Assembly: GCA_003022945.1 (NCBI GenBank)
Contig: PXRZ01000043.1
Coordinates: forward strand, 1-39,981
DNA: 39,981 nucleotides
Direction: 5' to 3'
From: Halobacteriales archaeon QS_8_69_73
GTDB taxonomy: Archaea; Halobacteriota; Halobacteria; Halobacteriales; Haloarculaceae
Part shown: piece after piece, positions 136 to 17,479 of the stretch
Position numbering within the stretch: the stretch's first letter is position 1
Layout: the number at the start of each line of letters is the position of its first letter
Translations under genes and position numbers: made by a program
Notes under the pieces: generated by a model
Seen by the model: only the letters and a program-made list of their open reading frames with translations
Database searches by the model: none
Told to the model about the DNA's origin: nothing

Positions 136-1158
136 ATGAAGGTCGCCGTCACCGTCCAGCACCCGGCCCACGTTCACTTCTTCGACAGCGTCGCCGCCGA
201 TCTGGAGGCGGCGGGCCACGAAACGCGCGTCTACGCCCGGGAGAAGGGCGTGGTCGCCGACCTCCTGGCCCGCAGCGACGTCGCCCACGAGCTGCTGGCC
301 GGCGAGGCCGGCTCCATTCCGGCGCTCGCAGCCGTCCAGTCGCTGTACGAACTCCGGCTGCTGCGCCGGATCCGGCGCTTCGAGCCCGACGTCGTGACCG
401 CCATCGGCGGGGTCGCGGCCGCCCACGTCTCGACGCTCCTGGACACCCCCTCCGTCGTGTTCTACGACACCGAGCACGCGGCGCTCGTGACGCGGCTCGC
501 CTACCCGTTCGCGGACGTGGTCTGTACGCCCCTCACCTACCGCGAACCCGTCCCCGGCACCCACCGGCGCTACCCCGGCTGCCACGAACTGGCCTACCTC
601 CACCCGGACCGGTTCAGCCCCGACCCCGCGGCGGTCGAGGGGCTCGGCTTCGACCCGGCCGAGCGGTTCGTCGTGCTGAGAGCGAGCGACTGGTCGGCCT
701 CCCACGACGTCGCGGCCGGCGGGTTCCGGGACCTCGTCGCGGCGGTCGAGCGGCTGGAGGCGGCCGGCGCCCGCGTCGTGCTCCTGCCCGAGGGCGACCC
801 GCCGGCGGCCGTCGCGGACCGACAGCGGGAGGTTCCGCCCGACGCCGTCCACGACCTGCTGGCCTACGCCGATCTCTACGTCGGCGAGGGCGCCACGATG
901 GCCGCCGAAAGCGGGGTGCTTGGTACGCCGGCCGTCTACGTGAACTCCCTGTCGATGGGCTACACCGACTGGCTCGAACACCACGGCCTGTTGTTCGGCT
1001 ACCACGGCGACGACCGCCACGAGCGGGGCCTAGACCGGGCCGAAGCGCTTCTGGAATCGGACGTCGACTGGCAACGACGTCGCGACCGGCTTCTGGCCCG
1101 CGCGACGGACACGGCCAGCGTCGCCGTCGCGGAACTGAAACGGGCCGCGGCCGGATGA
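136..1158 (+). CDS. DUF354 family protein (GT-B fold, glycan biosynthesis)
   Basis: 340 aa, starting MKVAVTVQHPAHVHFF. The HPAHVHFF signature near residues 9-16 is typical of DUF354 proteins, which have a GT-B fold related to UDP-GlcNAc 2-epimerases and nucleotide-sugar transferases. A second conserved stretch, GEGATMAAESGVLGTPAVYV (about 250-270), corresponds to the C-terminal nucleotide-sugar binding half. There is no signal peptide, so it should be cytosolic. The stop overlaps the ATG of the next glycosyltransferase in an ATGA, so the two are almost certainly translationally coupled. The exact substrate cannot be read from sequence; a role in building a surface glycan is inferred from neighbours. 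No clear TATA box was found, and the promoter may lie outside the window. Confidence 0.82.
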   Translation: MKVAVTVQHPAHVHFFDSVAADLEAAGHETRVYAREKGVVADLLARSDVAHELLAGEAGSIPALAAVQSLYELRLLRRIRRFEPDVVTAIGGVAAAHVSTLLDTPSVVFYDTEHAALVTRLAYPFADVVCTPLTYREPVPGTHRRYPGCHELAYLHPDRFSPDPAAVEGLGFDPAERFVVLRASDWSASHDVAAGGFRDLVAAVERLEAAGARVVLLPEGDPPAAVADRQREVPPDAVHDLLAYADLYVGEGATMAAESGVLGTPAVYVNSLSMGYTDWLEHHGLLFGYHGDDRHERGLDRAEALLESDVDWQRRRDRLLARATDTASVAVAELKRAAAG

Positions 1159-2072
1159 AGGCCCTCCAGCTCGTGACGACGCCGCGGCCGTTCTTCGACG
1201 ACCAGCTCGCGGCCCTCGAGCGCCACGGCGTGGAGTGTACGACGGTGACGGTTCCGGGCGACCGCGGCGACCGAACTCCCGTCGATCTCCTCCGGTTCGT
1301 GCGACAGGTTCGTCGGGTCGCCGACGACAGCTACGACGTGGTTCACGCGAACTTCGGGCTCACCGGCCCGGCCGCCCTCGTCCAGCCGGTCCGGCCGGTC
1401 GTCCTCACGCTGTGGGGAACCGACGTGATGGGCGATCACCGGGCCGTGAGAACCCTGAGCCGGCTGTCGGCTCGCCGGGCCGACGCCGTCGTCTTCCCCT
1501 CCCGACGCCTGACCGACTACCTCGATTGTCCCCATCACCTGGTCCAGTTCGGCGTCGACACGGAGCTGTTCCGACCGATACCGCGGGATACCGCCCGCGC
1601 GACGCTCGGGTGGGATCCCGAGCAGCCCGTCGTACTGTTCCCGTACGATCCCGACCGTGCGGTCAAGAACTATCCGCGGGCGGTGGACGTCGTCGATCGG
1701 CTGGCGGCCGACGCCGACCTGCGCGTCGTGACGGGCGTGCCGCACGAGCAGGTGCCGACGTACATGAACGCCAGCGACGCGGTCCTGATCACGTCCCGCC
1801 GGGAGAGCGGACCGCTGGTCGTCAAGGAGGCGGCGGCGTGCAACGTCCCCGTCGTTTCGACGGACGTCGGGTTCGTCCGGGACGTCCTCGGTCCGGTCGA
1901 CGCCAGCGCGGTCCGGGAGACCGACGCCGGCCTGGCGGCGGCGCTGGACCGCGTACTGGCCGACCATCGGCGGTCCGACGGCCGTAGGAGTGCCCCGGAG
2001 CTGAAGGCAGACGAACTCGGCGCACGTCTCAGCGACCTGTACGAATCGCTCGCCGCTAAACGGTCGACGTGA
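1155..2072 (+). CDS. GT4-type glycosyltransferase
   Basis: 305 aa. The ATG overlaps the stop of the DUF354 gene (ATGA), and homology begins at MKALQLVTT; the much longer open frame upstream is out-of-phase shadow of DUF354. N-terminal half: VVHANFGLTGPAAL and LTLWGTDVMG, typical acceptor-side motifs of GT-B family 4 enzymes. C-terminal half: FPYDPDRAVKNYPRAVDVV (donor-side loop) followed by SDAVLITSRRESGPLVVKEA, whose E-x-x-x-x-x-x-E pattern is the GT4 hallmark for nucleotide-sugar binding. It probably adds one sugar to a lipid- or protein-linked glycan on the cytosolic face. Somewhat short for GT4 (usually 350-400 aa). The sugar and acceptor are unknown. Confidence 0.85.
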   Translation: MKALQLVTTPRPFFDDQLAALERHGVECTTVTVPGDRGDRTPVDLLRFVRQVRRVADDSYDVVHANFGLTGPAALVQPVRPVVLTLWGTDVMGDHRAVRTLSRLSARRADAVVFPSRRLTDYLDCPHHLVQFGVDTELFRPIPRDTARATLGWDPEQPVVLFPYDPDRAVKNYPRAVDVVDRLAADADLRVVTGVPHEQVPTYMNASDAVLITSRRESGPLVVKEAAACNVPVVSTDVGFVRDVLGPVDASAVRETDAGLAAALDRVLADHRRSDGRRSAPELKADELGARLSDLYESLAAKRST

Positions 2073-2151: not shown

Positions 2152-3141
2152 TCAGCGGCCGCGGCGAAGCGTGACTCCGACGGCGCCCACGGCGATCAGA
2201 CCGCCGAGCGCGGCTACGGGGACGGCCTGGCCGCGGACGACGGCCCAGCCGACGCCGGGCACCTGTCGCGGCGCCACCGCGGCCCGCCGCAGGTGTGCGA
2301 GGCCGGTCCGGAGGTCGCCGTCGCGGAGCCGGGCCTTCGCGAGTATCAGCGCGTGGCGGCCCTCGACGTCGTGGCCCGCGGCCTCCAGCGCCGCGACCGT
2401 GTCGGCGAACGTCTCGAGGTAGTGTTCGTCGGCGGCCTCGACGGCGTCGGCCGCGGGGTCGTCGGACTCGTGCCGGACGACGAGCGGCTCCGGGACGTGG
2501 GCCAGTTTGCCCTGCCGAAGAATACGGACGAGGAACTCCGCGTCCTGGAACCGGTCGAAGGACTCGTCGAAGCCGCCGAGCCGCTCGGCGACCGCCCGTT
2601 CGACGAGGAGCGTCGAGCCGGCGTGGGTGTGGAGGTCGTCGAGCAGGACGTCGGCGACGAGCTCCTCGCCGCCCTCGACCGGCTCGGCCGACTCGGCCGA
2701 CTCGGCCGACCCGGCGTCGCGGAGGAGATCGGCCACCGCGACCTCAAGGCGCCCGAGGAGTCCGTCGTGGGTCCGCTCGACATCGCAGTACGCCGCGACC
2801 CACTCGTCATCGTCGCCGCGGTCGTCGAGCCGGTCGAGCTGTCGTTCGAGCTTGCGCGGCCGCCACTCGTCGTCGGAATCCAGGAACGCGACGTACTCGC
2901 CGGTCGCGTGCTCGATTCCGGTGTTCCGCGCCGCGGACGCACCGCGGTTCTCGTCGTGGGCGACGCGTTCCAGCCGCGGGTCCCGGCGCCGCTCGACGAC
3001 GGCCGCGGTCTCGTCGGCCGAGGCGTCGTCGACGACGACGACCTCGAGGTCGGTGTGCGTCTGTGCGAGCACGCTGTCGATCGCTCGCCCGAGCACCGGC
3101 GCCCGGTCGTACGTCGGAATGATGACGCTGACGGTCGGCAT
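2152..3141 (-). CDS. GT2 family glycosyltransferase
   Basis: 329 aa from MPTVSVIIPTYDRAP, the canonical GT2 beginning. DDAS near 40 and the catalytic DSD near 95 (YVAFLDSDDEWRP) bind the nucleotide sugar and metal. The middle contains an Ala/Glu/Ser-rich loop (about 150-165) made of short ESAE repeats. The last ~30 residues include one hydrophobic stretch (VPVAALGGLIAVGAVGVTL) ending in RRGR, so the enzyme may be membrane-anchored at its C-terminus. The open frame extends 49 codons upstream, but this start has a TATA-like box (GTAATAAAAC) about 28 nt upstream, fitting a leaderless mRNA. The shared TTAC-N7-GTAA palindrome lies just upstream. Convergent with the GT4 gene. Confidence 0.88.
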   Translation of the reverse strand: MPTVSVIIPTYDRAPVLGRAIDSVLAQTHTDLEVVVVDDASADETAAVVERRRDPRLERVAHDENRGASAARNTGIEHATGEYVAFLDSDDEWRPRKLERQLDRLDDRGDDDEWVAAYCDVERTHDGLLGRLEVAVADLLRDAGSAESAESAEPVEGGEELVADVLLDDLHTHAGSTLLVERAVAERLGGFDESFDRFQDAEFLVRILRQGKLAHVPEPLVVRHESDDPAADAVEAADEHYLETFADTVAALEAAGHDVEGRHALILAKARLRDGDLRTGLAHLRRAAVAPRQVPGVGWAVVRGQAVPVAALGGLIAVGAVGVTLRRGR

Positions 3142-3172: not shown

Positions 3173-3187
3173 TTACGGGCCCGGTAA
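3173..3187 (-). promoter_or_regulatory. TTAC-N7-GTAA palindrome at GT2 promoter
   Basis: TTAC-GGGCCCG-GTAA, with the whole core self-complementary. It abuts the TATA-like box of the GT2 gene (start 3141), 32 nt from the ATG. Same architecture as 5209, 8430, 10782, 12008 and 12116. Candidate operator; the cognate regulator is unknown. Confidence 0.55.
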
Positions 3188-3259
3188 CCGGCGCGGTGCG
3201 GCGCGGAACGGCGCGGTCGGAACGCCGCGTGCGGCGCCCTCGATTGCGGAAGTCGGCGG

Positions 3260-5167
3260 TCAGGACTCGACGCAGAGCGTGACGTCACCGTTTGCGTAGA
3301 GGACGTCCCGGCCCGCGCAGGCGCCCCGGGGACCGACGCGCCGGACGGCCACCGTTCCGTTCCGGACGAACAGCGGTGCGCCGTTAGTCTGGTACCCCCG
3401 GTGGACCACCCGGTTGTTGGCCATCCGGCCGTTTTCGGTCACCGCGGCCTGGACGGCGAGGTGGCTGTCGGTCCGCCGGAACACGGTCGCGTACGGCGAG
3501 TCGGTCCACACCGGGTCGTCCGCGGAGACGATGGCGCCGACCGTGTGAACGCCGGCGACCTCGGACTCGGTGTATCCGAAGCGGAGCTGGTGTTCGGAAA
3601 ATGGCGGTGCATCACGCGTCGCGTCCCCGGCGACGAGCATCGTCGCGGGGAACGCGATCACGACGACGAGAAGACAGGCGGTCGCCACCCTGGGGTGGGC
3701 GCTGGTGGCGAGATACGCCAGCCCGAGGACGCCGAGGACGGCCATCGGGGCGTAGAGGAACGCGAACCAGCGGCCCGGCAGGAATATGTCGATGCCGAAC
3801 AGCGGGATGACGAGCGCGAAGGTGCCCATCGCGACGCTGCTCAGGACGAAGGTGAGCGTCGCGTGGGAGGCGCGAGCGCCGTTGAGGACGTACAATGAGC
3901 CGAGGATGCCGACGCCCGCGGTGAAGACGAAGCCGAAAACGTCGATGTAGGCCACGAGCGTGTCGATCAGCCCGGTCACGCCGGCGGCCGCCTCCGCCGC
4001 GGCGGCGTCGGTGGGTCGCTCCTGGAGCGTGAACAGCCCGAGACTCTCCCGCAGGCGGCCGGCGAACTGGACGGAGATCACCCCGAGGAACCGTCCGCCC
4101 CGATACGGCGTGATACTCCAAACGAACGTCATGATGCCGGTTTGAAACAGAAGAATGCCGGTGACATCGTTCATCGCGTCGGAGCGGTACGGGATGTCGG
4201 CCGCGAGCAGCAGCTGGACCGCGACGGCGCTGGCCAGGACGACGAACATCACGAAGGCCCCGACCTGGTGGATCAGCGGATTCGCGCCGATGACGACGGA
4301 AAGCAGCACGATGTCCCGTGGCGCCCGGAACATCATGATGCGGACGAGCAGATAGAGTCCGACGAGAAAGCCCACGAGCGAGAGGCTGTTCGGAATCAAC
4401 ACGAGCGACCAGCGTACGGCCTGATCGCTGATGGCGTACAGGGCGGCGGCGGCGAGCGCCCACCGGGGGCCGATGAACAGCCTGGCGGTCGCGTAGATCA
4501 CGAGCGGGACGAACACCATCGCGACGCCGAGCGAGAGATACAGCGCGACACGGATCGGAATGCGAGCCAGAACCGAGGTGGTGACGACGAGGAGGTGGTA
4601 CAGCGGCGCAGTGTAGTACTTCTGGGCGCGAGAGGGGAACTCGAGCATCGCGTCAAGGGTGCCGGCGTCGTGGACCGCCCGTACGAGCTCCACGTGGGTC
4701 CAGGTGTCGACGCCGATGACGCCGGCGGTGGTCGTGAGCGCGGCGAGCCTGACGACGGCGGCGAGCGCGAGCAGCTGGACGAGAACCGCGATGGGCCGCA
4801 GGTCCCCCCGTTCGGCGAACAGGACCTGGATCAGTATGAGCGTACCGACGCCGCCGGACAGGAGCAAGACCGGCACGGTCCGCCGGCCGTAGTAGGTGGT
4901 GAGTACGACGACGGCGGCGAGCGTGAAGAACACGGCCGCCGGGAGCAGCCGCAGGACGACCGTCGGGAGCGTCGGGAGCCCCGTGTTCGGGCGCGTTCGC
5001 CGGGTCGCCAGGAGGTACAGCAGGCAGGCGAGGATCAGCGCCGGCGGCAGGACGTCGGCGTAGAGATGGGTGACGACGACCCGGAGTGGGAGCCCGAGCA
5101 CGCCGACGATGGCGCCGACGACCGCCGCCATGCGGTCGATTCGCCAACCCCTCGGCTGGCCAGCCAT
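3260..5167 (-). CDS. Polytopic membrane protein, GT-C/GT39-like glycosyltransferase candidate
   Basis: 635 aa from MAGQPRGWRID, with about 12-13 hydrophobic helices followed by a roughly 130-residue soluble C-terminal domain. After several helices the first large loop carries VIGVDTWTHVELVRAVHDAG, an acidic loop of the kind that holds the catalytic Asp in GT-C enzymes, followed by YYTAPLYH. These support a membrane sugar transferase using a polyprenyl-linked donor on the outer face. It lacks the WWDYG block of AglB/STT3, so it is probably not the oligosaccharyltransferase. The frame stays open for 526 more codons upstream, antisense to the beta-helix gene; that part is shadow. Start chosen because hydrophobic helices begin right after it and a promoter palindrome lies 42 nt upstream. 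Confidence 0.75.
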   Translation of the reverse strand: MAGQPRGWRIDRMAAVVGAIVGVLGLPLRVVVTHLYADVLPPALILACLLYLLATRRTRPNTGLPTLPTVVLRLLPAAVFFTLAAVVVLTTYYGRRTVPVLLLSGGVGTLILIQVLFAERGDLRPIAVLVQLLALAAVVRLAALTTTAGVIGVDTWTHVELVRAVHDAGTLDAMLEFPSRAQKYYTAPLYHLLVVTTSVLARIPIRVALYLSLGVAMVFVPLVIYATARLFIGPRWALAAAALYAISDQAVRWSLVLIPNSLSLVGFLVGLYLLVRIMMFRAPRDIVLLSVVIGANPLIHQVGAFVMFVVLASAVAVQLLLAADIPYRSDAMNDVTGILLFQTGIMTFVWSITPYRGGRFLGVISVQFAGRLRESLGLFTLQERPTDAAAAEAAAGVTGLIDTLVAYIDVFGFVFTAGVGILGSLYVLNGARASHATLTFVLSSVAMGTFALVIPLFGIDIFLPGRWFAFLYAPMAVLGVLGLAYLATSAHPRVATACLLVVVIAFPATMLVAGDATRDAPPFSEHQLRFGYTESEVAGVHTVGAIVSADDPVWTDSPYATVFRRTDSHLAVQAAVTENGRMANNRVVHRGYQTNGAPLFVRNGTVAVRRVGPRGACAGRDVLYANGDVTLCVES

Positions 5168-5208
5168 CGCGTGCGTCACTACCCCCGGTTCGACACGACC
5201 CGTGGTTA

Positions 5209-5223
5209 CTACGTGGCGCGTAG
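5209..5223 (-). promoter_or_regulatory. CTAC-N7-GTAG palindrome upstream of GT-C-like gene
   Basis: CTAC-GTGGCGC-GTAG, a variant of the TTAS-N7-STAA element with the same 7-nt spacer. Read toward the 5167 start it is CTACGCGCCACGTAG, close to the flippase copy TTACCGCCCACGTAA. A weaker half-match, TTAG-GAAGTAC-ATAA, lies at 5271-5285 on the beta-helix side of the same divergent intergenic region. Confidence 0.42.
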
Positions 5224-5353
5224 CCCATTCGCCGGGAGCGAGGGCCGGTCGAGCGAGACTGTTTCGGCCCTTAGGAAGTACATAAACGCCGGGGGAGTCT
5301 CTCGTCGCCGACCATTCCACAATATTTAATCCTTCGAACGGAGAAGATCTACC

Positions 5354-6712
5354 GTGGACGATGACCTCAGCCGCCGGAGTTTCCTCGGGGGAGTCGGCGC
5401 CGCAGTATCGGTGGCGCCCATCGGTTCGGTCGACCGAGCCGGAGGGTCGTTCGACGCCGTCGTCGACGTTTCTGCGGTCGGGGGAGACCCTTCCGGCGGG
5501 GCCGCCGTCGACGACGTTATCACGGATGTCGCACGCGACGGCATGCTGCTCGAGTTTCCGGACGGCCGGTATCGGGTCGACGACCTGACGCTGACCGACC
5601 TGGAGGGGGTCGGCCTGTCGGCGGCCGGAGACGCCACCCTCGTTCCGGGGGCGGCCTGCGAGAACTGGCTGACCATGGCCGAGGTCGAGGATTTCCTGTT
5701 CGAGGGGTTCACGCTCGACAACACGGCCTCGGGCTGCGCCCCGACGGTGGTGATGCGGGCCAGCGACGGCCTCGAGGTCCGCGACGTGACGAAGCGGGGA
5801 TACCACGACGGCGACAACACGGCGTTCGGGTTCGCCGTCACCGACGCGACCGGTACGGGCATCGTCGAGCGCCTCCGGGTTCCGGACGGCAGCATCCCGG
5901 TGAAGCCCGTCGGCGTGTACGTCCAAGGCGAGGGCACGATCACGTTCCGGGACTGCCACATCGAGGGGTTCGGGAACAACGGCCTCTACGCGTCGATGGC
6001 CGACGGCCCCGTCCACGTCGAGGGGGGTCGCTACGTGGGCAACGACCGTGCGAACGTCCGTCTCGGCAGCCCGAACTCCTCCGTTCGTCGCGCCGACATC
6101 GTCGCCCGAGCGGCGGACCCGATGCCCCGGAACGCCCGGGGGGTTCGGTTCTCGGACGGGCCCGGCCCCGTCTTGATCGAGGACTGTCACATCCACATGG
6201 CGGGGGGCCGAGGGATGGGTGGCATCGTCAACGCATACAACGGAGGGACCCTGGAGGTCAGAGACACCGTGGTCCGTATCAGCCCGGAGTACCGAAATCT
6301 CAGGGGGACCCACACCGGCTACGGCGTGCTGCTCGACGAGGCGAGTGCCGCCCCGACGGGGACCCGGACGCTGGAGAACGTCCAGGTCGTCGGTGGGGGC
6401 AGCGGCGGCGCCGCACTCCGGATCCGACGGGGGGACACGACGCTGCGGGACTGCTGTATCCACCAGACCGGCGACCGCGACGGCCTCCGGTTCGAGCAGG
6501 ATCCGAGCGACGTCACGGTCGTCGACACCGCCATCGACGTGCCCGGCCGACGGGTCACCGGAAGCGCGGATCTCGACTTCGAGCGCGCGTCGGCGGGCAG
6601 GTGTACCGGCGACGACCCGTCTTCCGGCCCGAACGAGATCCGAGGGGACGGAAGGCGAGACGACGAAATCCCCGATTCCGGTGGAACGCTCCCGACGAAC
6701 TGGACCTGCTGA
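5354..6712 (+). CDS. Tat-exported right-handed beta-helix protein
   Basis: 452 aa, GTG start. The N-terminus DDDLSRRSFLGGVGAAVSVAPI is a twin-arginine signal (SRRSFLG plus short hydrophobic core), so it is exported folded, as usual for haloarchaea. The body has irregular ~22-residue repeats rich in Gly, Asn, Asp and Val (for example GTITFRDCHIEGFGNNGLYA), the pattern of a pectate-lyase-like parallel beta-helix. Cysteines appear in DCHIHM and DCCIHQ. TATA-like box AATATTTAAT sits about 28 nt before the GTG; an in-frame stop at 5327 leaves no earlier start. Divergent from the GT-C-like gene. It may trim or bind a surface polysaccharide; no catalytic residues could be assigned, so activity is uncertain. 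Confidence 0.8.
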   Translation: MDDDLSRRSFLGGVGAAVSVAPIGSVDRAGGSFDAVVDVSAVGGDPSGGAAVDDVITDVARDGMLLEFPDGRYRVDDLTLTDLEGVGLSAAGDATLVPGAACENWLTMAEVEDFLFEGFTLDNTASGCAPTVVMRASDGLEVRDVTKRGYHDGDNTAFGFAVTDATGTGIVERLRVPDGSIPVKPVGVYVQGEGTITFRDCHIEGFGNNGLYASMADGPVHVEGGRYVGNDRANVRLGSPNSSVRRADIVARAADPMPRNARGVRFSDGPGPVLIEDCHIHMAGGRGMGGIVNAYNGGTLEVRDTVVRISPEYRNLRGTHTGYGVLLDEASAAPTGTRTLENVQVVGGGSGGAALRIRRGDTTLRDCCIHQTGDRDGLRFEQDPSDVTVVDTAIDVPGRRVTGSADLDFERASAGRCTGDDPSSGPNEIRGDGRRDDEIPDSGGTLPTNWTC

Positions 6713-6748
6713 GACGCGACGGTCGCGCCGCGAGCGCCACGGCAATTT

Positions 6749-7333
6749 CTATTCCGATGATTCGGCGGGAGACTCCGGGGGCCGGCCGCGTCGGAGCCCG
6801 GGCGCACCGTCGAGAAGCCACAGCGCCGCCGCGGTCCCGAGAAACGCCAGTTCAAGCGCGACGAGGCGGCGAGCACCGGGCTGGGCTAGGCGGTGGAGAT
6901 GTCGGGTCAGGTACAGGATCGTTCGTTGCAGGGATCCGACCTCCACGGCGTACCCCGGGTGGGTGACGACCGGCCAGAGCACGCGCGAGAGCGCGGGTCC
7001 CTCGCCGAAGACGATCGGATAGCAGATGTCGGCGACGAGATGGGAAACGTAGGTCACGATGAACGCCGCACCGACGCGACCGTGGTCGCGGTCGGCGGCC
7101 ACGGTACCGACGGCCGCGATGACGGCGAGCGCGACGAAGGCGGAGTGAGCGACGGCGTACCCGGTGGGAAAGACATCGAGCGACCACGACAGCGGCTTGT
7201 CGATCAGGTCGGGTGCGAGCGCGCCGACGGCCACCGCGGCGGCCTCGTGCCGTCGTGGTGGGTCACCCGTCGCCAGCCGGACCGACAGCGAGTACGCCAG
7301 GTACCCCAGTGCCAGGTGCTCCCAGGGCCACAT
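6749..7333 (-). CDS. Membrane-bound metal-dependent hydrolase (DUF457/YdjM-like)
   Basis: 194 aa from MWPWEHLALGYLAY. It has 4-5 hydrophobic helices and the His/Asp pattern of the DUF457 (YdjM) family: EHL near the start, APDLIDKP, AHSAF and SHLVADICYP. These residues are thought to bind metal near the membrane surface. Its start overlaps the stop of the DUF1616 gene (TGATG), so it is second in a two-gene operon. The tail (about 170-194) is charged. Family members are poorly characterised; a role in lipid or glycan-lipid metabolism is inference. A longer open frame extending to 8203 is shadow. Confidence 0.77.
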   Translation of the reverse strand: MWPWEHLALGYLAYSLSVRLATGDPPRRHEAAAVAVGALAPDLIDKPLSWSLDVFPTGYAVAHSAFVALAVIAAVGTVAADRDHGRVGAAFIVTYVSHLVADICYPIVFGEGPALSRVLWPVVTHPGYAVEVGSLQRTILYLTRHLHRLAQPGARRLVALELAFLGTAAALWLLDGAPGLRRGRPPESPAESSE

Positions 7334-8400
7334 CAGCGCCCGTCCGGGCCGTCGTTGCCCGCCACGACGGCCGATTCCTCCTGGGGCGGTTGCACGCGCA
7401 CGTCGACCCCGAGAACCCGGTAGGCGTTCGCCGGCGCCGGCTCCAGCGGTACCCCACCGCGGAAGACGAGGTAGGTGAGCCGGAGGTCGGCGCCGGACTC
7501 GGAAGGGCGGATTTCGTGGCGGCGTTCGACCGACTCGCCGTGCTCGAGGGTGGCGGCGAACCGGTCGAGCTCTTCGACGGTCCGTCGTGTCCCGTCGTCG
7601 GAGCGGGCGATCTGAACGACGACCTGGTACTCCGCGCGCTCGTACTCGTGGTTGCGTAAACCGACGGCCAGCTCCGTCGACGCTCCGGCCGTGAGCTCGC
7701 GGGGAACGGCCGCCGTCGTCAGGTTCCCGTCGTCGTTTTCGGCGACGAGATAGGCCTCGGTGAACCGGTCGCCGGCCGGCGGCGGTGCGGTCGCGGCGAA
7801 AGCGACGCTTCCGGCGAAGGCGATCAGGCTCACCGCCACGGCGCCTCGGATCAGCCAGTCCTCGGCGGTGGCCGACGACCAGCCCACCAGCGGGCGGCTG
7901 CCCCCGGAATCGAGCTCCTGGGACACCGGCACCGGGCCGAACGGCGTGAACCGCTTCGGGGCCGGGAGCCGGAGCCGGCGAGCGAACGCGACGACGGCAA
8001 GCAGCACCATTGGCCCGCAGACGGCCGCGAGCAACGGGCCGGCCCGGAGCGGCGACGGCGAGATGTCGACGACGAGCGCGAGCAGCGGAACGATGACGAC
8101 GCTCACCGGGATGGCGAGGGCGAGCCGGTCGACGCGGCTGAGCCCGTAGCTCACCGGCGCGTCGGCGTGTGCGCCGCGTTGCTCCGGGTCGAACGCCTGC
8201 CATTCGACGTTCTCGCGGGGCATCCGTTCGGGGTAGAGAGCGGCGACCAGCGCGTACCCCGGTAGCAGGACGACCGTCGGCACCACCACGAGCGCGCGGA
8301 GGACCGGCGCGACCTCGAACAGCACGACGTAGGCCGTGAGCCCGGCGTGGACGACCACGCAGACCAGGTCCACGTACCAGAACCGCGGCGCATCCGACAT
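7333..8400 (-). CDS. DUF1616 domain membrane protein
   Basis: 355 aa from MSDAPRFWYVDLV. Four N-terminal hydrophobic helices (about 10-160) include VVLLPGYALVAALYPERM, the DUF1616 signature region, with DRLALAIPVSVVIVPLL. A fifth helix is near 195, followed by an extracellular domain (about 215-350) that reads as an Ig-like fold. DUF1616 proteins are common in archaeal surface-glycan clusters; their function is unknown. A GTG codon directly before the ATG is an alternative start. TATA-like CTAATAAAGC lies about 28 nt upstream, fused to a TTAG-N7-CTAA palindrome. Translationally coupled to the DUF457-like gene. Confidence 0.8.
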   Translation of the reverse strand: MSDAPRFWYVDLVCVVVHAGLTAYVVLFEVAPVLRALVVVPTVVLLPGYALVAALYPERMPRENVEWQAFDPEQRGAHADAPVSYGLSRVDRLALAIPVSVVIVPLLALVVDISPSPLRAGPLLAAVCGPMVLLAVVAFARRLRLPAPKRFTPFGPVPVSQELDSGGSRPLVGWSSATAEDWLIRGAVAVSLIAFAGSVAFAATAPPPAGDRFTEAYLVAENDDGNLTTAAVPRELTAGASTELAVGLRNHEYERAEYQVVVQIARSDDGTRRTVEELDRFAATLEHGESVERRHEIRPSESGADLRLTYLVFRGGVPLEPAPANAYRVLGVDVRVQPPQEESAVVAGNDGPDGR

Positions 8401-8429
8401 CACTCGGAGGAGAGCCGCACGGAGCTTTA

Positions 8430-8444
8430 TTAGACCCGGGCTAA
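8430..8444 (-). promoter_or_regulatory. TTAG-N7-CTAA palindrome at DUF1616 promoter
   Basis: TTAG-ACCCGGG-CTAA, 30 nt from the DUF1616 start and overlapping the stop codon of the Thr/Pro-rich gene (8441-8443). This separates two otherwise adjacent same-strand operons, so it is likely to mark a real promoter. Confidence 0.55.
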
Positions 8445-9229
8445 GTTCGGCGCCGGCGCCACGCGAGGACGAACAACCCGGCCGCGACGGCGACCGAGAC
8501 CGTTCTGGCGGGCAACTGGATTACGGACGTCGCCAGAATCGTGCTCGCGGCGGTCGCCGTTGCCGACGCGGTGTCCGTCGGAGTTGACGTCCCGTTTCCG
8601 GTACCGGTCGGCGTCGAACTGGCCGTCGATGTCGATGTGGCCGTCGGCGTCGGTGTTCCCGTCGGAGTCGGTCCGTCGCCCGTGCCGGTCGGCGTCGAAC
8701 TGGCTGTCGATGTCGGGGTCGGCGTCGGCGTCGGGGTTTCCGTCGGTGACATTGGGTCCGTCGGGGTTGATGTTGGAGTCGAGGTCGGCGTCGGGGTCGG
8801 TGTTGGCGTCGGGGTTGATGTTGGAGTCGATGTCGGTGTCGGTGTCGGGGCCGGGGTCGAGGTCGGGGTTGGCGTCGGCGTCGGGGTCGAGGTCGAGGTC
8901 GGGGTTGGCGTCGGCGTTGGGGTCGGGGTCGGCGTCGATGTCGGTATCAATGTCGGGGTCGATGTCGCGGCGGTCGTCGGCGTGCGGCGTGGAGTAGGCG
9001 GCGTTCCGGACGACGAGGAGGGGGTCGGCGAGACCGCGGAGGTCGGCGAGACCGTGGGAGTGGTGGTCGCGGTGTCGTTCGAGCCGCCGGCGTCGGGGGC
9101 GCTGCCGGTGACGCCGGGGTTGACGACCGCAAATGTCAGCCCCGAGGCGAGAAGGGCGACGCCGACGACGGCCAGAACCGATTCGATGGAGTCGATCGGG
9201 GACACCGAAGTCCGCCCTGAATCACTCAT
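8441..9229 (-). CDS. Thr/Pro/Ser-rich mucin-like membrane protein
   Basis: 262 aa. Layout: short cytosolic head, hydrophobic helix ([19 protein letters not shown], about 18-36), then ~180 residues almost wholly Thr, Pro and Ser in TPTPTSTP-type repeats (about 50-215), then a C-terminal helix ([14 protein letters not shown]) and RRRRT. This is the design of a heavily O-glycosylated stalk held at the cell surface. It does not have a PGF-CTERM motif. The start overlaps the 3' end of the flippase gene by 8 nt, so it is co-transcribed with an enzyme that exports lipid-linked glycan. A few N-x-T sites (NDT, NGT) are also present. Function as a glycan acceptor is inferred. The repeat DNA is prone to length change. 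Confidence 0.75.
8570..8965. repeat. Low-complexity GTCGGCGTCGGG-type repeat encoding Thr-Pro tracts
   Basis: Degenerate 6-nt periodicity (GTCGGN, GTNGGG and similar on the + strand) runs across this segment and encodes (TP)n and (TS)n on the minus strand. It produces long spurious open frames in other phases that read as Val-Gly repeats. Confidence 0.7.
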
Positions 9230-10745
9230 CGTAGCCCCCGTCGGTCGCGAGCCGCCGTTCGACGGCGGCCAGGTACGGGGCGAGCGGGGTCGAACGGAGG
9301 AGTTCGCGGACCTCCCCCCGGTCGAGGGCTCCGGTCCCGAAGGCGCAGGCGAGAAAGGCGGCGAGGCCGACCGGCGGCACCACGACGAGGGCGGCGGGGT
9401 CGCCGATCACCGTGGGGAAGGCGAGAATCGGGACGGCGGCGAGCGCGACCGTGACCGCTATGCGGGCCAGGCGGGCGTCGGCGAGGGGGTCGAAGCCGAG
9501 GTGTCGGGCCGACGCGACGTGGAACAGGAACATGGCCCCGTAGCCGACGCTGGTCGCCGCGGCGGCGCCGACCATCCCGTACCGCGGAATGAGCAGGAGG
9601 TTGAGCCCGAGATTCAGGCCGGCCGCGACGCCGGTCGCGGCGATGGGGGCCGCGAGGTCGCCCTTCCCTTGGCTGGCGGCGAGTATCGGGCGGGCGAGCG
9701 CGAACCCGAGCGCCCCCGGCAGGAGAATCAACAGTGGGGTGACGGCCGGCTCGGCTTGCGGCCCGTAGTACAGCGGGACCACGACGTCGGCCAGCGCGGC
9801 GAGTCCGAGCGCCATGACGGCGGTGAGCAGGAACGTGTACCGGGTGGAAACGGAGGTGACCTTCGTCACCCGCGCGACCCGGTCGTTCGACCACAGGTTC
9901 GACATCGACTGGACGAAGACCATCTGGATGGCCAGCGGCACGAACCAGAGGAACTCCGCCATCTGGAGGGCCGCCTTGTAGTGGCCGACGCTGGTGCTGT
10001 CGGTGAACCACTGCAGCAGCAGGATGTCGACGTGGTACAGCGACATCATCAGGAGTACGAGCACGATGCTGAGCGTGTTGAACGACATGAGACTGCGCCA
10101 CGGCAGCCCGTCGGCCGACGAACGAACCGCCCGGGTCACGGACAGTTCCCGGTGGACGAGCGCGATGCCGGCGACGACCACGACGGCGTTGGCAACGATG
10201 GTGCCGACGAGCACGCCGGTGACGCCGTAGCCGACGTAGACGAGCGGGATTGCGAGGCAGACGAACAGAATGCGGTTGCCGGCCTTTATCGGCTCCGAGT
10301 ACCGCTCGAGGCCGAACCCCATCAGTGTGCGCCGATTGACCGCGCGGAACTGTGCGAGAAGCACCATCGCCGCGAGCAGGTAGAAGTACGGCGCGAACTC
10401 CGGTCCGGCGTACCGGGCGACCAGGCCCGTCCGGGTGGCAACGACTATGAGCCCGGCGCCGACGACCCCCAGGACGAACGCGAGCCGGAGGTAGAAGCCG
10501 ACGACCCGGCGCTCCCAGTCCGGCCGGTCGCGGTCCTCGGCGAGGAACTTCCGGACGCCCTCGGTGACACCGGAGCTGACGAAGATCATGTACAGCGCGA
10601 ACGTCGACAGGAGGAAGGCGTAGACGCCGTACGACGAGGGCCCGAGTAGTCGGTACAGTATCGGCGTCGTGATCACGCCGATCATGAGGGTAACGACCTT
10701 GCCGCTCAGTATCGCGCCGAACCCCTCGAGGATGCTTCGCTGCAT
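9222..10745 (-). CDS. Polysaccharide flippase (Wzx/MATE-like, MOP superfamily)
   Basis: 507 aa with 12-14 hydrophobic helices. The N-terminus reads [20 protein letters not shown] then [18 protein letters not shown], the classical start of Wzx/RfbX and haloarchaeal AglR-type transporters. [19 protein letters not shown] near residue 385 is the matching conserved block in the second half. Such proteins move polyprenyl-linked oligosaccharides across the membrane. First gene of an operon with the Thr/Pro-rich protein (8-nt overlap). TATA-like AAGAATACAG lies about 26 nt before the ATG, fused to the TTAC-N7-GTAA palindrome. A longer antisense-like open frame over the same DNA is shadow. Confidence 0.88.
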
Positions 10746-10781
10746 GCGGCTCCACCGGCCATCGACGGGCGGGCTGTATTC

Positions 10782-10796
10782 TTACGTGGGCGGTAA
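10782..10796 (-). promoter_or_regulatory. TTAC-N7-GTAA palindrome at flippase promoter
   Basis: TTAC-GTGGGCG-GTAA, within the longer palindrome CTTACCGCCCACGTAAG on the coding strand. It sits 37 nt from the flippase ATG and directly abuts the TATA-like box. Confidence 0.58.
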
Positions 10797-10841
10797 GACC
10801 GGTGCCGAGCGGGCCGTCGACCGGACGCCGCGTGGCGGGGC

Positions 10842-11978
10842 TCAGCAGTTGTCGTGTTCGGCGAACGAGATGGTCCAGTTCCCCGGGTCCAGGAGGTCGA
10901 CGCCGCGGACGGTCTGGGAGGGCGGGTCGCCGTCGATGGAACGGGCGACGTGCGGCGTTGCCCCGGTGACCCGGGACAGCACGGGGGTATCCCGCTCGTG
11001 GAACCCCAGCGCGGCCATCGGCTCCCGGGGGAGCGGCGACGCCGGCGCGACTATCGCCGCCGCATCCCGGGCGTCCCGCGTGACCGCCCGGAGCGCCGCG
11101 ACGACCGCCGCCCGGCCGGGGTCGTCGTCCGTCCCGACGGCCGGTGGCGCAACGTCGACGATCCGGGTCACGGCCGCGCCGGCGTGGCGCTCGTCGGTGA
11201 CGACGACGCCGAACGCGGGCTCGCCGGCCCGTTCGGCCAGGTAGGTCGTGTACTCGGCCGGCGCCTCGCCGAACCGCCACCGGTAGAACTCCGCGTCCCG
11301 GACGGCGTGCAGCCCCGTCGGCGCCCGGTGCTGATAGCGGTCGGCCAGCGTGGCTGCGGGCACGGTCTCGTGGCGGGTGACGGTGACCTCTTCGTCTGCC
11401 CGGCCGAGGCCCCACCCGCGGGCGTGTACGTACCCGCGAGCGGCGGCCCGGAGGAGTGGCGTCGCGGCCCGGAGCGGTCGACCGGCGGCGCCCGCGAGCG
11501 CGGCGGGGTCGTGGATGCGGTAGTACGTCCGGAGTTCGTCCACCACGTCCCAGCCCTGGTCGAGGTTCCCGGTGAGGGAGGCCGGGTTCGGGAAGTTGAA
11601 GAAAAAGGCCGGTGCACCCGTCCGGTACCGGTCGATGGCCGCCGCCGTCAGCCGGGTGAACAGGCCCCGGCGGCGGTGGTCGGGGTGGACCATCGTGTCG
11701 GCGGGCTGGAGCGCGACGGCGGTGCCGTCGCCCACCCGCATCCGGAGCGCGAACAGGGGCCGGGCGCCGACGAGTACGCCGCCCCGCTCCGCGATCAGGA
11801 TGGGGACGTCGTCGACGTACGGGTTCGAGCGGTACTTCCAGTCCAGCCACGCCTCGCTCCGGCCGCTGTCGAACACGGTCCGGTACAACTCGAGGAAGTC
11901 GGCCGCGTCGCCGGGCTCGAAGGGACGGATCTCGTACTCGTCGGGTGCTGCCATCGGGCCGGACGCTGCCGGGGTCAC
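10842..11978 (-). CDS. GNAT family N-acetyltransferase
   Basis: 378 aa if started at the GTG at 11978, 370 aa from the ATG at 11954 (MAAPDEYEIRPF). N-terminal GNAT domain: YEIRPFEPGDAADFLELY (beta1-alpha1), then LQPADTMVHPDHRRRGLFTRL, whose VHPDHRRRGLF is the acetyl-CoA binding motif A (R/Q-x-x-G-x-G/A variant). The second half resembles a divergent second GNAT lobe, as in Eis-like proteins. In a glycan cluster it probably acetylates an amino sugar; that is inference. The GTG start is preferred because it sits 30 nt from the promoter palindrome, as at the sister promoters; the ATG would leave a 5' UTR of roughly 25 nt. Confidence 0.78.
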   Translation of the reverse strand: MTPAASGPMAAPDEYEIRPFEPGDAADFLELYRTVFDSGRSEAWLDWKYRSNPYVDDVPILIAERGGVLVGARPLFALRMRVGDGTAVALQPADTMVHPDHRRRGLFTRLTAAAIDRYRTGAPAFFFNFPNPASLTGNLDQGWDVVDELRTYYRIHDPAALAGAAGRPLRAATPLLRAAARGYVHARGWGLGRADEEVTVTRHETVPAATLADRYQHRAPTGLHAVRDAEFYRWRFGEAPAEYTTYLAERAGEPAFGVVVTDERHAGAAVTRIVDVAPPAVGTDDDPGRAAVVAALRAVTRDARDAAAIVAPASPLPREPMAALGFHERDTPVLSRVTGATPHVARSIDGDPPSQTVRGVDLLDPGNWTISFAEHDNC

Positions 11979-12007
11979 GGTCGTCCCGTCGGTATCACGC
12001 GTAATGA

Positions 12008-12022
12008 TTACGAGCCTGGTAA
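12008..12022 (-). promoter_or_regulatory. TTAC-N7-GTAA palindrome at GNAT promoter
   Basis: TTAC-GAGCCTG-GTAA. Read toward the gene it is TTACCAGGCTCGTAA followed by TCATTACG, a TATA-like stretch. Together with the copy at 12116 it brackets the divergent GNAT/deacetylase intergenic region, one copy per direction. Confidence 0.55.
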
Positions 12023-12115
12023 ACGCCCGCGGAGAGTCCGACAGCACCGGGCCGAGGGCTCATGCCGGTGATACCGTCCTGTCGGCCCCGAGCGATGCCG
12101 GACGGGTGACCCCAC

Positions 12116-12130
12116 TTAGCTGTCGCGTAG
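12116..12130 (+). promoter_or_regulatory. TTAG-N7-GTAG palindrome at deacetylase promoter
   Basis: TTAG-CTGTCGC-GTAG followed by GTAATGCC, a weak TATA-like box. It ends 30 nt before the deacetylase ATG, the same geometry as the minus-strand copies. Confidence 0.48.
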
Positions 12131-12159
12131 GTAATGCCCAGCCCGTTTTCGACCCCGGC

Positions 12160-13086
12160 ATGGGTTCGGTCGTCATCTCGCTCGACGCGGAACTCGGCTG
12201 GGGGTTCCACGACCGGGACCCCGTCCCCGCCGACCGCATCCGGTCGGCCCGGACCGCCTGGCGTGACCTGTGCAGGCTGTTCGACCGGTTCGACGTCCCG
12301 GCGACGTGGGCGGTCGTCGGCCACCTCCTCCTGGCCGACTGCGACGCCGAACATCCAGGACATCCGGCCGGACCGCGTTGCTGCGACGGGGCGCCGGGCG
12401 CGATGGCCGCCGACGAGGCGTGGCACGGTCGGGACCTGGTCGAACGGGTGCTGGCGGCGGACGCCGACCACGATCTCGCGAGCCACGGGTTCACGCACGT
12501 CCACTTCGACCACGGCCTGATGCGGCGTGAGTTCGCCGCCGCGGAACTCCGCGCATGGGGCGCCACGGCCGCGGCGGTCGATGTGTCGCCCGGCTCATTC
12601 GTCTTCCCCGTGAACCGCGTCGGTTACCGCGACCTCCTGGTCGAGCACGGGTTCGACGCCTACCGCGGCCGCCAGCCGTCGCGACGCGGCCGGGTGCGAA
12701 AGCTCTCCGACGCGCTTCGGGCCTGCGGGATGCCGCCGCTGGTCTCGCCCTCCGTCGACGAGTACGGCCTCGTGAACGTACCCGCGTCGGCCTACCTCTT
12801 CGGGTTCGATGGCTACGCCCGGTCGGCCGTGGAGGCCGTCCGCGGCGACCCGGTCGTCGACCGGGTGGAACGGGCCCTGGCGGCGCTCGACGAGCGCGGC
12901 GGCGTGCTCCACCTCTGGTTCCACCCCCACGACCTGGTCCGGGAGCGGGACTTCGAGCGGGTGCGGCGGGTGGTCGAGGCCGTCGCTCGGGCGCGGGCCA
13001 CGACGGACGTCCGGGTCGAGACGATGGCTGCCGTCGCCGACCGGGTCCGCGAGCGTCACGGCGAGGTCTCCACGGCGTCCCGGTAG
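12160..13086 (+). CDS. Polysaccharide deacetylase (NodB-like, CE4)
   Basis: 308 aa from MGSVVISLDAELGWGF. The Asp in SLDAE corresponds to the metal/base Asp of NodB motif 1; ASHGFTHVHF (about 107-116) supplies the His-x3-His metal pair; HLWFHPHDL (about 252-260) is the C-terminal catalytic-His motif. No signal peptide, so it acts in the cytosol, probably on a nucleotide- or lipid-linked N-acetylated sugar. The frame is open for 196 codons upstream, but that part is antisense to the GNAT gene. Divergent from GNAT; the two could be a modification pair (N-deacetylation, then re-acylation), which is inference. Its 3' end overlaps the convergent asparagine-synthase-like gene by 31 nt. Confidence 0.85.
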   Translation: MGSVVISLDAELGWGFHDRDPVPADRIRSARTAWRDLCRLFDRFDVPATWAVVGHLLLADCDAEHPGHPAGPRCCDGAPGAMAADEAWHGRDLVERVLAADADHDLASHGFTHVHFDHGLMRREFAAAELRAWGATAAAVDVSPGSFVFPVNRVGYRDLLVEHGFDAYRGRQPSRRGRVRKLSDALRACGMPPLVSPSVDEYGLVNVPASAYLFGFDGYARSAVEAVRGDPVVDRVERALAALDERGGVLHLWFHPHDLVRERDFERVRRVVEAVARARATTDVRVETMAAVADRVRERHGEVSTASR

Positions 13087-14747
13087 TCGACCGTGGCCGG
13101 GACGGGTTCGAGGTCCGGGTTCCGGAGTACGCGGTCCCGCCAGACGGCGTACGTGATGAGGTTCCAGGTGACCGGACCGAACGAGTCCACGTGGTCCGAC
13201 AGCATCCCCTCCGGAACGACGGACGGCGGCTCGTACCGGTCGAAGACGTCCGCGAGCGGGCCGTCATCGAAATACCGCTCCAGTGGGAGCGCGCCGCTTC
13301 CCTTCTTTCGTCCGGTCGGATACGACGGGAGCCGGCGGGCCAGCAGCCGCTTGAGCAGGTACTTGGCGTCCAGCGACCCGAGACCGGAGAGGCCCTGGAC
13401 GTACCGGCGGTCGGCGGGGATGGACTGCGAACACCGGGCCATGCGTCCGGTCTTGAACGGCGCCAGAAGCGATGCCCCGTGAGCGTGGGCCAGTTGCCGC
13501 CACTGGGCGACGGTATTGTGCTGGAAGAACGACAGCAGGTGACCGAGCTCCAGGTGGGCGGTCGCCGGGCCGGCGTCCGTGGTGGCGACGCGGTCGGCGA
13601 CGAAGGCCCGCTGGGCGCGGAGCCGCCGGTCGACGAGATCGTCGCCGACCATGCGGGCGACGACATCCGGGTCGGTGAAGAACGCGAACCGCTGGGCGAA
13701 GCCGCCCCTGTCGGCCGTCGGCCGGTCGAAGCGGCGGGCCAGGTCGTGGAGTTCGGCGAGACGGCGGCCGGCGGCGCCCGGGACACCGGCCGCGAGCGGT
13801 CGCGGGGTGCGGGCCAGAAGGGGCCGGAGCAGCGCCGCGATGCGCGCCCCTTTGCTGCCCGTGAGCCCGAAGAGGGCGTCGGCGCCTTCGCCGTTGACGT
13901 ACCGGCGGCCGTCGTCCGCCGCGAAGAGCGCGTGGGTGAGCGCGGTCTGTGAGAAGTGCGACGGGAATCCGAGGCGGTCCATGCTGCCCTCGAGCCACGT
14001 CAGGAACCGGGTCTCGTCGAGCGCGACGGTCCGGTGGCCGTCGGCGGTTAGAAGCTCGCGGGTGTCCCGGACGTAGCGGCGCTCGAACGCGAGCTCCGGG
14101 GAATCGATGGCCATGCTCACCGTCGGGGCGTCCAGGTAAGTCCCGAGAAGCGTCGAGTCGACGCCGCCGGAGAACATCACGGTCTGGTCGTTTCTCGAAC
14201 CGGCGGCGAGGACGGCCTCGAGCGCGTCGTCGATGGCATCGACCGCCGCGTCGGCGGTGAGGACCGGCTCGACGTCGAGGCGGCCACGCTGGTCCACCGT
14301 CGGACCGTCGTCGGTCCAGTCGAGCCAGGCGCCGCGGGGGACCGTCTCGATCTCCGCGACGTAGGCGTCCGGCTCGATCGGCGTCCGGAAGAGCAGGTGA
14401 TCGGCGACGGTCCGGTCGGGGACCGACCGGCCGTCGACCGGGAGCCGTGCGAGGGCGGTCCGGAAGTGGTCGGTCAGGATGACGGTACCGTTCGGCGTGC
14501 GGCAGTGATAGAGGCTGCGGGTGGCCGTGACGCTGCGGTAGGCGCGGAGACGGCCGTCGACCACTCCGACGGCGACGGCGTCCTCCGCGACGGACTCCAG
14601 TCGGCGGCGGACCTCCGAGCCGTCGTCGGCGGCCTCGACCGCCGCCCGGAGGGCCGACGGGGCGAGCCCGGCGACGAGCCAGGTCCCGGCCGTGGTCTCG
14701 ACCGTCAGCGCGTCGGGGTCCGTCAGCGTCACCTCGACGGGTGGCAT
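13056..14747 (-). CDS. Asparagine synthase-like amidotransferase, no glutaminase Cys
   Basis: 563 aa. C-terminal synthetase domain: PP-loop SGGVDST at 193-199, then YVNGEGADALFG near 278-289, typical of the AsnB ATP site. N-terminal part (1-150) keeps the class II glutamine amidotransferase framework (YRSVTATRSLYH, ILTDHFRTAL, VPRGAWL), but the protein starts MPPVEV, without the catalytic Cys at position 2, and is short at its start, so it probably cannot hydrolyse glutamine and would use ammonia or a partner. In surface-glycan loci such enzymes may amidate uronic acids; that is inference. Start chosen at the first ATG; weak TATA-like GGCTAAGG is about 26 nt upstream. It lies downstream of the phosphatase-superfamily gene on the same strand. 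Confidence 0.78.
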   Translation of the reverse strand: MPPVEVTLTDPDALTVETTAGTWLVAGLAPSALRAAVEAADDGSEVRRRLESVAEDAVAVGVVDGRLRAYRSVTATRSLYHCRTPNGTVILTDHFRTALARLPVDGRSVPDRTVADHLLFRTPIEPDAYVAEIETVPRGAWLDWTDDGPTVDQRGRLDVEPVLTADAAVDAIDDALEAVLAAGSRNDQTVMFSGGVDSTLLGTYLDAPTVSMAIDSPELAFERRYVRDTRELLTADGHRTVALDETRFLTWLEGSMDRLGFPSHFSQTALTHALFAADDGRRYVNGEGADALFGLTGSKGARIAALLRPLLARTPRPLAAGVPGAAGRRLAELHDLARRFDRPTADRGGFAQRFAFFTDPDVVARMVGDDLVDRRLRAQRAFVADRVATTDAGPATAHLELGHLLSFFQHNTVAQWRQLAHAHGASLLAPFKTGRMARCSQSIPADRRYVQGLSGLGSLDAKYLLKRLLARRLPSYPTGRKKGSGALPLERYFDDGPLADVFDRYEPPSVVPEGMLSDHVDSFGPVTWNLITYAVWRDRVLRNPDLEPVPATVDYRDAVETSP

Positions 14748-14790
14748 ATTCGCCGGCGGTGGCGGCCGGGCCTTAGCCGTCGCGGACCGT

Positions 14791-16487: not shown

Positions 16488-16491
16488 ACGG

Positions 16492-16944
16492 TCACCCGAA
16501 TAGCCTGCCGAAGAGTGACTCGACCCGCGAGGAGTTTTGGGCCGCCTCGGAGTCGTGCGTGAGGTCGACGCCGACGTCCAGGCCCTCCTCGACGTACGGC
16601 GCGAACAGGGCGATGGGCGGCAGCGGCCGGACGAACCCCCGCGCACGGTTGTACTCGATGATGTTGTGTTCGTCCAGCTTCGGAAGGTGGTTCTGGTACA
16701 GCGCGATGTAGACCCGCTGGCGCTCCTGGGACGTCAACTCGGCGACCGTCGTATCGTACTCCCAGGCCGCGATCTCCTCGACCATGTCGCGCATCCGGAA
16801 TTTGTCTTGGTCGTCGCGCGCCAGGATATAGCGGATGATGGCGCGTCGGCGCTTCGTCTGGAGGATATGGAAGGCGTCGTCCTTCGGGATACGTATCGTC
16901 TCGGCAGGTTGGGCGGCGTTGTCGGTGGAGGATTTTGCGCTCAT
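16492..16944 (-). CDS. DUF7344-type winged-helix protein, candidate regulator
   Basis: 150 aa. The core (about 20-115) reads DAFHILQTKRRRAIIRYIL...VEEIAAWEY...RQRVYIALYQNHLPKLDEHNIIEYNRARGFV, the haloarchaeal winged-helix module in which the segment NHLPKLDEHNIIEYN forms the last helix and wing. Such proteins often sit in exopolysaccharide or surface loci and are presumed transcription regulators. It precedes the phosphatase-superfamily gene by 4 nt. Upstream AT-rich DNA (TTATTCCTCTATTCA, about 25-35 nt before ATG) provides a probable TATA box; the cluster palindrome was not found here. The name DUF7344 is from memory of the family pattern. Confidence 0.75.
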   Translation of the reverse strand: MSAKSSTDNAAQPAETIRIPKDDAFHILQTKRRRAIIRYILARDDQDKFRMRDMVEEIAAWEYDTTVAELTSQERQRVYIALYQNHLPKLDEHNIIEYNRARGFVRPLPPIALFAPYVEEGLDVGVDLTHDSEAAQNSSRVESLFGRLFG

Positions 16945-17052
16945 TGTCTACGGCGAGTGAAGAGGGTGAATAGAGGAATAACCAATAGCAAATTCCGAAC
17001 CGTTTCAGACTGTTTCAATCCCGCTGGCGTACTGCGATTAGGAGGTGGATAT

Positions 17053-17203: not shown

Positions 17204-17479
17204 ATGCAGTCCCGAGGTCCAGGGACCCCGGACGATCCAGCGCAGTTCACGGTCGACCGCGACGAACTGGTCGAACTCGTCGACGAGATCGAAACTCCGG
17301 CGACGCTCGATCGGGTCGCCGACGTCGTCTTTCGCCGGCGGGTCAGAGCGAACGCTCTCTCGAAGTCCTGGTACGACATCCACGGGAAACTGTATCGCGT
17401 CGATCTTCCACATCTCGATTCGGTCGGCCAGCTCGAGTTCGACGAGGAGCGAGGCCTCGTCGACTCCACGGACACGTAG
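17204..17479 (+). CDS. Small DUF7344-like winged-helix protein
   Basis: 91 aa from MQSRGPGTPDD. It reads as a minimal copy of the module in the 16492-16944 gene: DELVELVDEIETPATLDRVADVV (helices) followed by YDIHGKLYRVDLPHLDSVGQLEFDEERGLVD, which parallels YQNHLPKLDEHNIIEYNRARGFV. Probably a DNA-binding regulator. TATA-like GTAATAAGG lies about 28 nt before the ATG, preceded by GTCGGGTC, giving GGGTCGTAATAAGG, close to the GT2 promoter sequence GGGCCCGTAATAAAA. A TTG-initiated form beginning at 17120 is possible but less likely. Long minus-strand frames over this gene are shadows. Confidence 0.6.
   Translation: MQSRGPGTPDDPAQFTVDRDELVELVDEIETPATLDRVADVVFRRRVRANALSKSWYDIHGKLYRVDLPHLDSVGQLEFDEERGLVDSTDT

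Follow-up and report, generated by a model that had tools for sequence, protein, structure and literature searches.

Inverted repeats with TTAC and GTAA halves are known from Bacillus, where operators of HxlR/DUF24-family regulators (CatR, with TTAC-N5-GTAA, and YodB) lie over promoter elements and serve in repression. To our knowledge, little has been learned about the switching of S-layer or exopolysaccharide glycan genes in haloarchaea. Here we describe a palindrome, TTAS-N7-STAA, which stands at six promoters of a putative glycan gene cluster in a stretch of 39,981 nucleotides from Halobacteriales archaeon QS_8_69_73 (hereafter the window: positions 1 to 39,981 of the forward strand of contig PXRZ01000043.1, assembly GCA_003022945.1), and which recurs in a broader form at homologous clusters of other Halobacteria. 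The palindrome of the window is similar in its halves to the Bacillus operators, and differs from those bacterial sites in having a spacer of 7 nt instead of 5. The nearest known operator is that of CsmR, an Lrp/AsnC-like regulator of Haloferax volcanii, whose motif TATCA-N4-TGATA adjoins the TATA box, the targets stressed in its description being archaellum, chemotaxis and shape genes (PMC13286277). Both elements are semi-palindromes with TATC/GATA halves, held at a fixed place by the TATA box of many promoters, and CsmR exemplifies how one haloarchaeal winged-helix regulator can serve many promoters; however, the CsmR site has 6 nt rather than 5 between TATC and GATA, belongs to motility and shape genes, and is described as lying upstream of the B recognition element (BRE) and the TATA box with no overlap of the latter (PMC13286277), whereas the glycan element overlaps it. 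SPS1 and SPS2 of the halolysin gene sptA of Natrinema J7-2 are likewise semi-palindromes touching core promoter elements, and SPS2 is a negative element with its 3' half over the BRE; unlike the glycan element, they have the forms GAAAT-N7-ATTTC and TTCTT-N10-AAGAA and serve a single gene (PMC6085418). Literature searches found no published description of the element reported here.

The six palindromes named in an earlier, sequence-only reading of this DNA were all found in place, with a constant spacer of 7 nt. Four have the strict form TTAS-N7-STAA: site 1 (3173..3187, minus strand, TTACCGGGCCCGTAA(TAA), 22.2 bits) precedes the GT2 glycosyltransferase gene (2152..3141, minus), site 3 (8430..8444, minus, TTAGCCCGGGTCTAA(TAA), 18.0 bits) the DUF1616 gene (7333..8400, minus), site 4 (10782..10796, minus, TTACCGCCCACGTAA) the Polysacc_synt flippase gene (9222..10745, minus), and site 5 (12008..12022, minus, TTACCAGGCTCGTAA, 7.4 bits) the GNAT acetyltransferase gene (10842..11954, minus). 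The other two are relaxed: site 2 (5209..5223, minus, CTAC..GTAG, CTACGCGCCACGTAG(TAA)) precedes the gene of a GT-C-like membrane glycosyltransferase (hereafter GT-C; 3260..5167, minus), and site 6 (12116..12130, plus, TTAG..GTAG, TTAGCTGTCGCGTAG) a deacetylase-like gene (12160..13086, plus). The relaxed form has one further match in the window, at 39563, outside the cluster. As had been said, both orientations are used, five sites facing minus-strand genes and the site at 12116 a plus-strand gene. The distance from site to start, put originally at 30-42 nt, is about right (31 nt for GT2, 41 for GT-C, 29 for DUF1616, 36 for the flippase and 29 for the deacetylase-like gene), with the reservation that the value for GNAT hinges on the start codon chosen (53 nt with the ATG at 11954, 29 nt with the GTG at 11978). 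Of the two half-matches that had been added to the set, at 5271 and near 17171, neither has an intact arm, and no support for them was found.

In the window, the strict form is seen four times against a mean of 0.12 in 100 dinucleotide shuffles, none of which reached four. The whole assembly (2,633,186 bases) contains 12 strict matches versus 30 for a reversed control, and four of the 12 are inside the glycan cluster, within 9 kb; for 12 random points placing four within 8.85 kb, the scan p is about 4e-5. The remaining eight were each viewed with about 85 bases per side. One of these off-cluster sites, TTAGCCACCACGTAA, is common to the nearest relative found (G125, the metagenome-assembled genome of Halobacteriales archaeon QS_4_69_225, whose contig supplied locus L093), and the genes surrounding it match no glycan family. 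G125 has 14 sites, five of them in the same cluster; between the window and L093, the six 15-mers are identical at 88 of 90 positions, both substitutions falling in spacers, and the flanks at 620 of 670.

Relatives of GT-C were found at E 1e-30 in 46 of the 146 genomes of the family, and an alignment of 15 GT-C members yielded 76 loci of other Halobacteria, which were taken with flanking stretches as long as 10 kb (1.6 Mb in total; 77 loci with the window). According to the record titles they span many genera, including Natrinema, Natrialba, Haloferax, Haloarcula, Halorientalis and others. In the 76 loci, TTA-Nk-TAA occurs 297 times with k = 9 and 248 times with k = 12, the latter peak being the TATA tail of the same element, and 25-49 times with each remaining k from 3 to 15. 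Similarly, TTAS-Nk-STAA (k from 0 to 21) is most frequent at k = 7 (42 occurrences), followed by k = 10 (33, owing to the TAGTAA tail of this element); other spacings give 1-15, and the reversed pattern is flat (16-38). The motif found de novo in the upstream regions of the DUF1616 and GT2 genes is CTTAYC-N4/5-GATAATAA, or cGCTTAtCcgggCGATAATAAAcC in its full form, and it agrees with the spacing counts in revealing an inverted repeat with a fixed spacer, as expected of the operator of a dimeric regulator.

At 10 bits or more, 215 of the 1200 upstream regions contain this motif, whereas the reversed profile finds one of 1200; when both training families (GT2 and DUF1616) are left aside, the count is 147 of 1114. 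Among genes with usable upstream sequence it precedes all 28 GT2 and 40 of the 58 DUF1616 genes; it also stands in the upstream regions of 30 of 58 UDP-sugar-dehydrogenase-like genes, 32 of 50 members of a lipoprotein/deacetylase-like family and all six nucleotidyltransferase-like genes. The GT-C gene itself bears it in 4 of 76 cases; in most loci, other cluster genes are located shortly upstream of GT-C. At 11 bits or more there are 304 sites (214 non-redundant) across 65 of the 77 loci, and 299 of the 304 are centred outside called genes, in sequence that is 81% coding. The conservation in homologous clusters that the sequence-only reading had proposed as a test is therefore observed.

The general consensus is TTAYC-N5-GRTAATAA, with a core TTA-N9-TAA, and is thus broader than TTAS-N7-STAA, the S positions of which were seen in the window and in its nearest relative; the window form, with G or C instead of A before TA, is a minority. 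In the averaged sites, ATARTAA stands about 30 nt ahead of the ATG; an A/T pair and a position rich in A are found between the two, and for this reason we take the downstream arm to be the TATA box. The distances of the pair and of the A-rich position past the box agree with a WW element and a start point. The palindrome had been thought to adjoin or touch a TATA-like box, which needs amending in that its downstream arm coincides with the box.

Specificity was examined in whole genomes. A sequence-only profile (R1), built from 85 sites and calibrated, was run on 10 whole genomes at E <=10 and gave 43 matches in nine of them, 40 of which have a GT-C gene within about 50 kb; among these, 17 fall outside the stretches that supplied the profile. 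Of the three others, one is located upstream of a flippase gene at a distance of about 320 nt, another is 36 nt upstream of an aspartoacylase-like gene, which is a member of a family often bearing the motif, and the third is at a contig end (L195, G147:C69, genome of L111) whose sequence we take to be adaptor-like. A second search, covering 142 genomes of the family with stricter filters at E 1 and with GT-C positions from the E 1e-30 search, returned 45 matches in 24 genomes. Thirty of them, in 13 genomes, are no more than 53 kb away from a GT-C gene, and they include matches in G123 and other genomes absent from profile training. Five of the 15 distant matches precede glycan-type genes on the same strand (a GlmS-like, two DegT-like aminotransferase, a GT4-like and an aspartoacylase-like gene), and one of the two DegT-like genes adjoins DUF1616. 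The matches concentrate at one cluster, rather than at promoters of all gene kinds as for a general core promoter, and the equal frequency at other promoters that had been named as a refuting outcome is not seen in either search.

The computation thus shows a site of exact spacing and defined placement that is conserved and concentrated at this set of genes. On these grounds we consider it very probable that the palindrome serves as operator for a single sequence-specific regulator, probably a dimer, and that it defines a haloarchaeal surface-glycan regulon. That a single regulator controls these glycan genes had already been suggested, and the conservation and cluster concentration of the sites speak for it. 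The regulon would comprise glycosyltransferases, the flippase, sugar-nucleotide enzymes, DUF1616 proteins and modifying enzymes. At their promoters, the upstream arm TTAYC is placed about 11 bp ahead of the TATA box and the downstream arm is built into it (ATARTAA), and a dimeric protein would occupy both arms. As the TATA box forms one of the arms, such a dimer would exclude or compete with the TATA-binding protein (TBP), which makes repression the simplest mode of action, and one towards which we lean slightly; it might be released on a surface or envelope signal. Activation from a position next to the TATA box would be the main alternative.

Several observations weigh against the operator and regulon so defined. 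Twelve of the 77 loci have no site. The sites of the window are divergent, so that the general profile recovers two of the six at 11 bits, and R1 finds only one of the six in their own genome and none in G125. The arms are unequal, position 14 being A in 91% of the sites and its partner T in only 46%. Under the stricter filters, matches near GT-C occur in only 13 of the 46 genomes with GT-C, and 10 of the 15 matches distant from it are without support or unexamined. Finally, none of 43 promoters of DUF7344 genes, which encode the candidate regulator discussed below, bears the element, and the signature of autoregulation is accordingly lacking.

As to the protein that reads the operator, the best candidate by linkage is the cluster-linked DUF7344 protein, encoded in the window at 16492..16944 (minus strand, Pfam assignment) and accompanied by a small second DUF7344-like protein under the Pfam cut-off (17204..17479, plus); we give this identification a little less than an even chance. 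DUF7344 members are present in 41 of the 77 loci, all 41 with sites, and in none of the 12 loci without sites (Fisher p 3e-5), an association that is confounded by clade, several other cluster genes behaving alike. By hand count, 26 of 28 motif-bearing genomes, the other two being undetermined, have a DUF7344 gene no further than 40 kb from GT-C, as does one of five genomes with site-less GT-C loci. In two of these five (the records of L117/L143 and of L141/L148), the motif is matched 62-67 kb away from GT-C, ahead of DegT-like genes, with a DUF7344 gene about 8 kb from the match; the gene thus accompanies the motif even where GT-C is far off. In G123, which has two GT-C copies (C1:1162900-1166895 and 1977165-1979674), a DUF7344 gene is within about 2 kb of each.

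The AlphaFold model of the window's DUF7344 protein (mean predicted local distance difference test score 80) has a winged-helix-like order of elements, and a Foldseek comparison with solved structures gave many matches of the winged-helix type, the best with E 0.019 and none at or below 0.001. A C-terminal hydrophobic stretch resembling a membrane anchor was recognized by eye in 19 of 22 aligned DUF7344 proteins, and is absent from the window copy. No paper on DUF7344 was found in a literature search. Autoregulation of DUF7344 through this site was considered and discarded, as the site is absent from the 43 promoters mentioned above. A different element, GAAACAGTCTGAAACGG-like (GAAACAGTCTG-like), is located ahead of some DUF7344 genes, both upstream of 16492-16944 in the window and in the loci; AAACAGTCTG occurs before DUF7344 in 8 of 11 cases and before DUF1616 in two. 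In several DUF1616 promoters of Haloferax and relatives, AACGGTC or AACAGTC directly precedes a T-run.

That the operator is real and is read by another protein, namely the DUF7343 membrane helix-turn-helix (HTH) protein of these clusters, an HxlR-receiver-HalX protein or an unlinked regulator, is in our judgement slightly favoured. The palindrome is present at the DUF7343 gene itself and stands before HxlR-receiver genes in five of seven upstream regions, and TTAC palindromes of a similar kind are bound by HxlR-family repressors in Bacillus. However, DUF7343 has no close relative in the genome of the window, where the sole match at E <=1e-12 (E 1.5e-13, 37% identity) is on another contig, and this weakens it as a general regulator. 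Among the matches listed, close full-length HxlR-receiver-HalX proteins (>=56% identity) are found in 6 of 35 genomes, with one more split by a stop, and no full-length copy is listed for the genome of the window; distant matches covering both parts (31-38% identity) occur in at least eight other genomes. A protein so seldom present in motif-bearing genomes is unlikely to be their general regulator, and, judging from these comparisons, both HxlR-receiver-HalX and DUF7343 are alternatives with a narrower distribution than DUF7344.

The promoters of the DUF7343 genes also bear on a further explanation, which we regard as improbable, namely that the element is a special core promoter, in which an alternative pair of transcription factor B (TFB) and TBP reads TTAYC and ATARTAA and no separate operator exists. 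Haloarchaea have several TFB and TBP proteins, and the profile sites are indeed joined to the TATA box at a constant distance; nevertheless, a BRE would be expected downstream of the position of TTAYC. In addition, TTA-N9-TAA is present upstream in all 31 DUF7343-gene promoters with a TATA-like anchor (out of 38 family members), at a distance from the anchor of 33 bp in 27 and 34 bp in four, as opposed to 11 bp in the usual arrangement. The palindrome is thus separable from the TATA box and, as this shift of 22 bp is about two helical turns, the helical face would be kept, which argues for a bound regulator over an alternative TFB site. In terms of the operator reading, the arrangement at the DUF7343 promoters would lend itself to activation or to control at a second level.

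It is very unlikely that the sites belong to CsmR, in spite of the alike TATC/GATA half-sites and the alike position next to the TATA box, because the targets stressed for CsmR are of another kind (PMC13286277), and because in the 76 loci TATC-N5-GATA is counted 45 times and TATC-N6-GATA, the CsmR spacing, 9 times, other spacings giving 5-19 except for spacing 0 with 35; it is on this difference in spacing that the identity is rejected. The notion that a few A+T-rich promoters of a G+C-rich genome gave rise to the pattern by chance or through their composition has practically no probability left, since, short as the motif is and picked after the fact by the sequence-only reading, the shuffles, the reversed controls, the alternative spacings and the whole-genome searches all speak otherwise.

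The locus looks like a cluster for the assembly and modification of a glycan, and its product could be an S-layer glycan or an exopolysaccharide. In addition to the GT2, DUF1616, flippase and GNAT genes, Pfam supports a DUF354 family gene (136..1158, plus strand; the family is present in 52 of the 77 loci), a GT4-type glycosyltransferase (Glycos_transf_1; 1155..2072, plus), an Asn-synthase-like gene, a type I phosphodiesterase and a YdjM-like gene (6749..7333, minus), which abuts DUF1616 and probably forms one operon with it. GT-C is named from a PMT_2 match just below the cut-off and from the appearance of the protein, and the deacetylase-like gene, for which Pfam gives nothing, by eye and from the sequence-only reading. 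In H. volcanii, one study lists the DUF1616 protein HVO_2173 among N-glycoproteins (PMC8241124), and another places its gene in a region tied to cell shape (PMC10869688). The frame of GT-C remains open far upstream (3260-6745, minus strand), antisense to a beta-helix gene (5354-6712), and a false start was chosen there in gene calling. The frame 8441-9229 (minus), located between DUF1616 and the flippase, consists mostly of TPT-type repeats with a hydrophobic C-terminus and belongs to no Pfam family. In G125 (L271, G125:C9:14000-33000, at about 10000-17600), Cas4-, Cas1- and Cas2-like and other cas-like genes were recognized by eye right of the glycan cluster.

The present analysis provides a precise operator that can be scanned for in genomes, a list of regulon genes from numerous named genera and a small set of candidate regulators, so that the switching of these glycan genes becomes testable in culturable hosts such as Haloferax, Natrinema and Natrialba. 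It also provides a large number of natural promoters with a regulator site fused in a fixed phase to the TATA box, which are useful for the study of how regulators encounter TBP and TFB in archaea. The most far-reaching picture, which we put forward tentatively and hold to be rather unlikely in its entirety, would be that of a surface-glycan regulon extending over much of the Halobacteria, in which the TATA box doubles as an operator arm, the readers are DUF7344 winged-helix proteins, membrane-anchored in most genomes, and the state of the cell surface may be relayed straight to the promoters of the very genes by which it is built.

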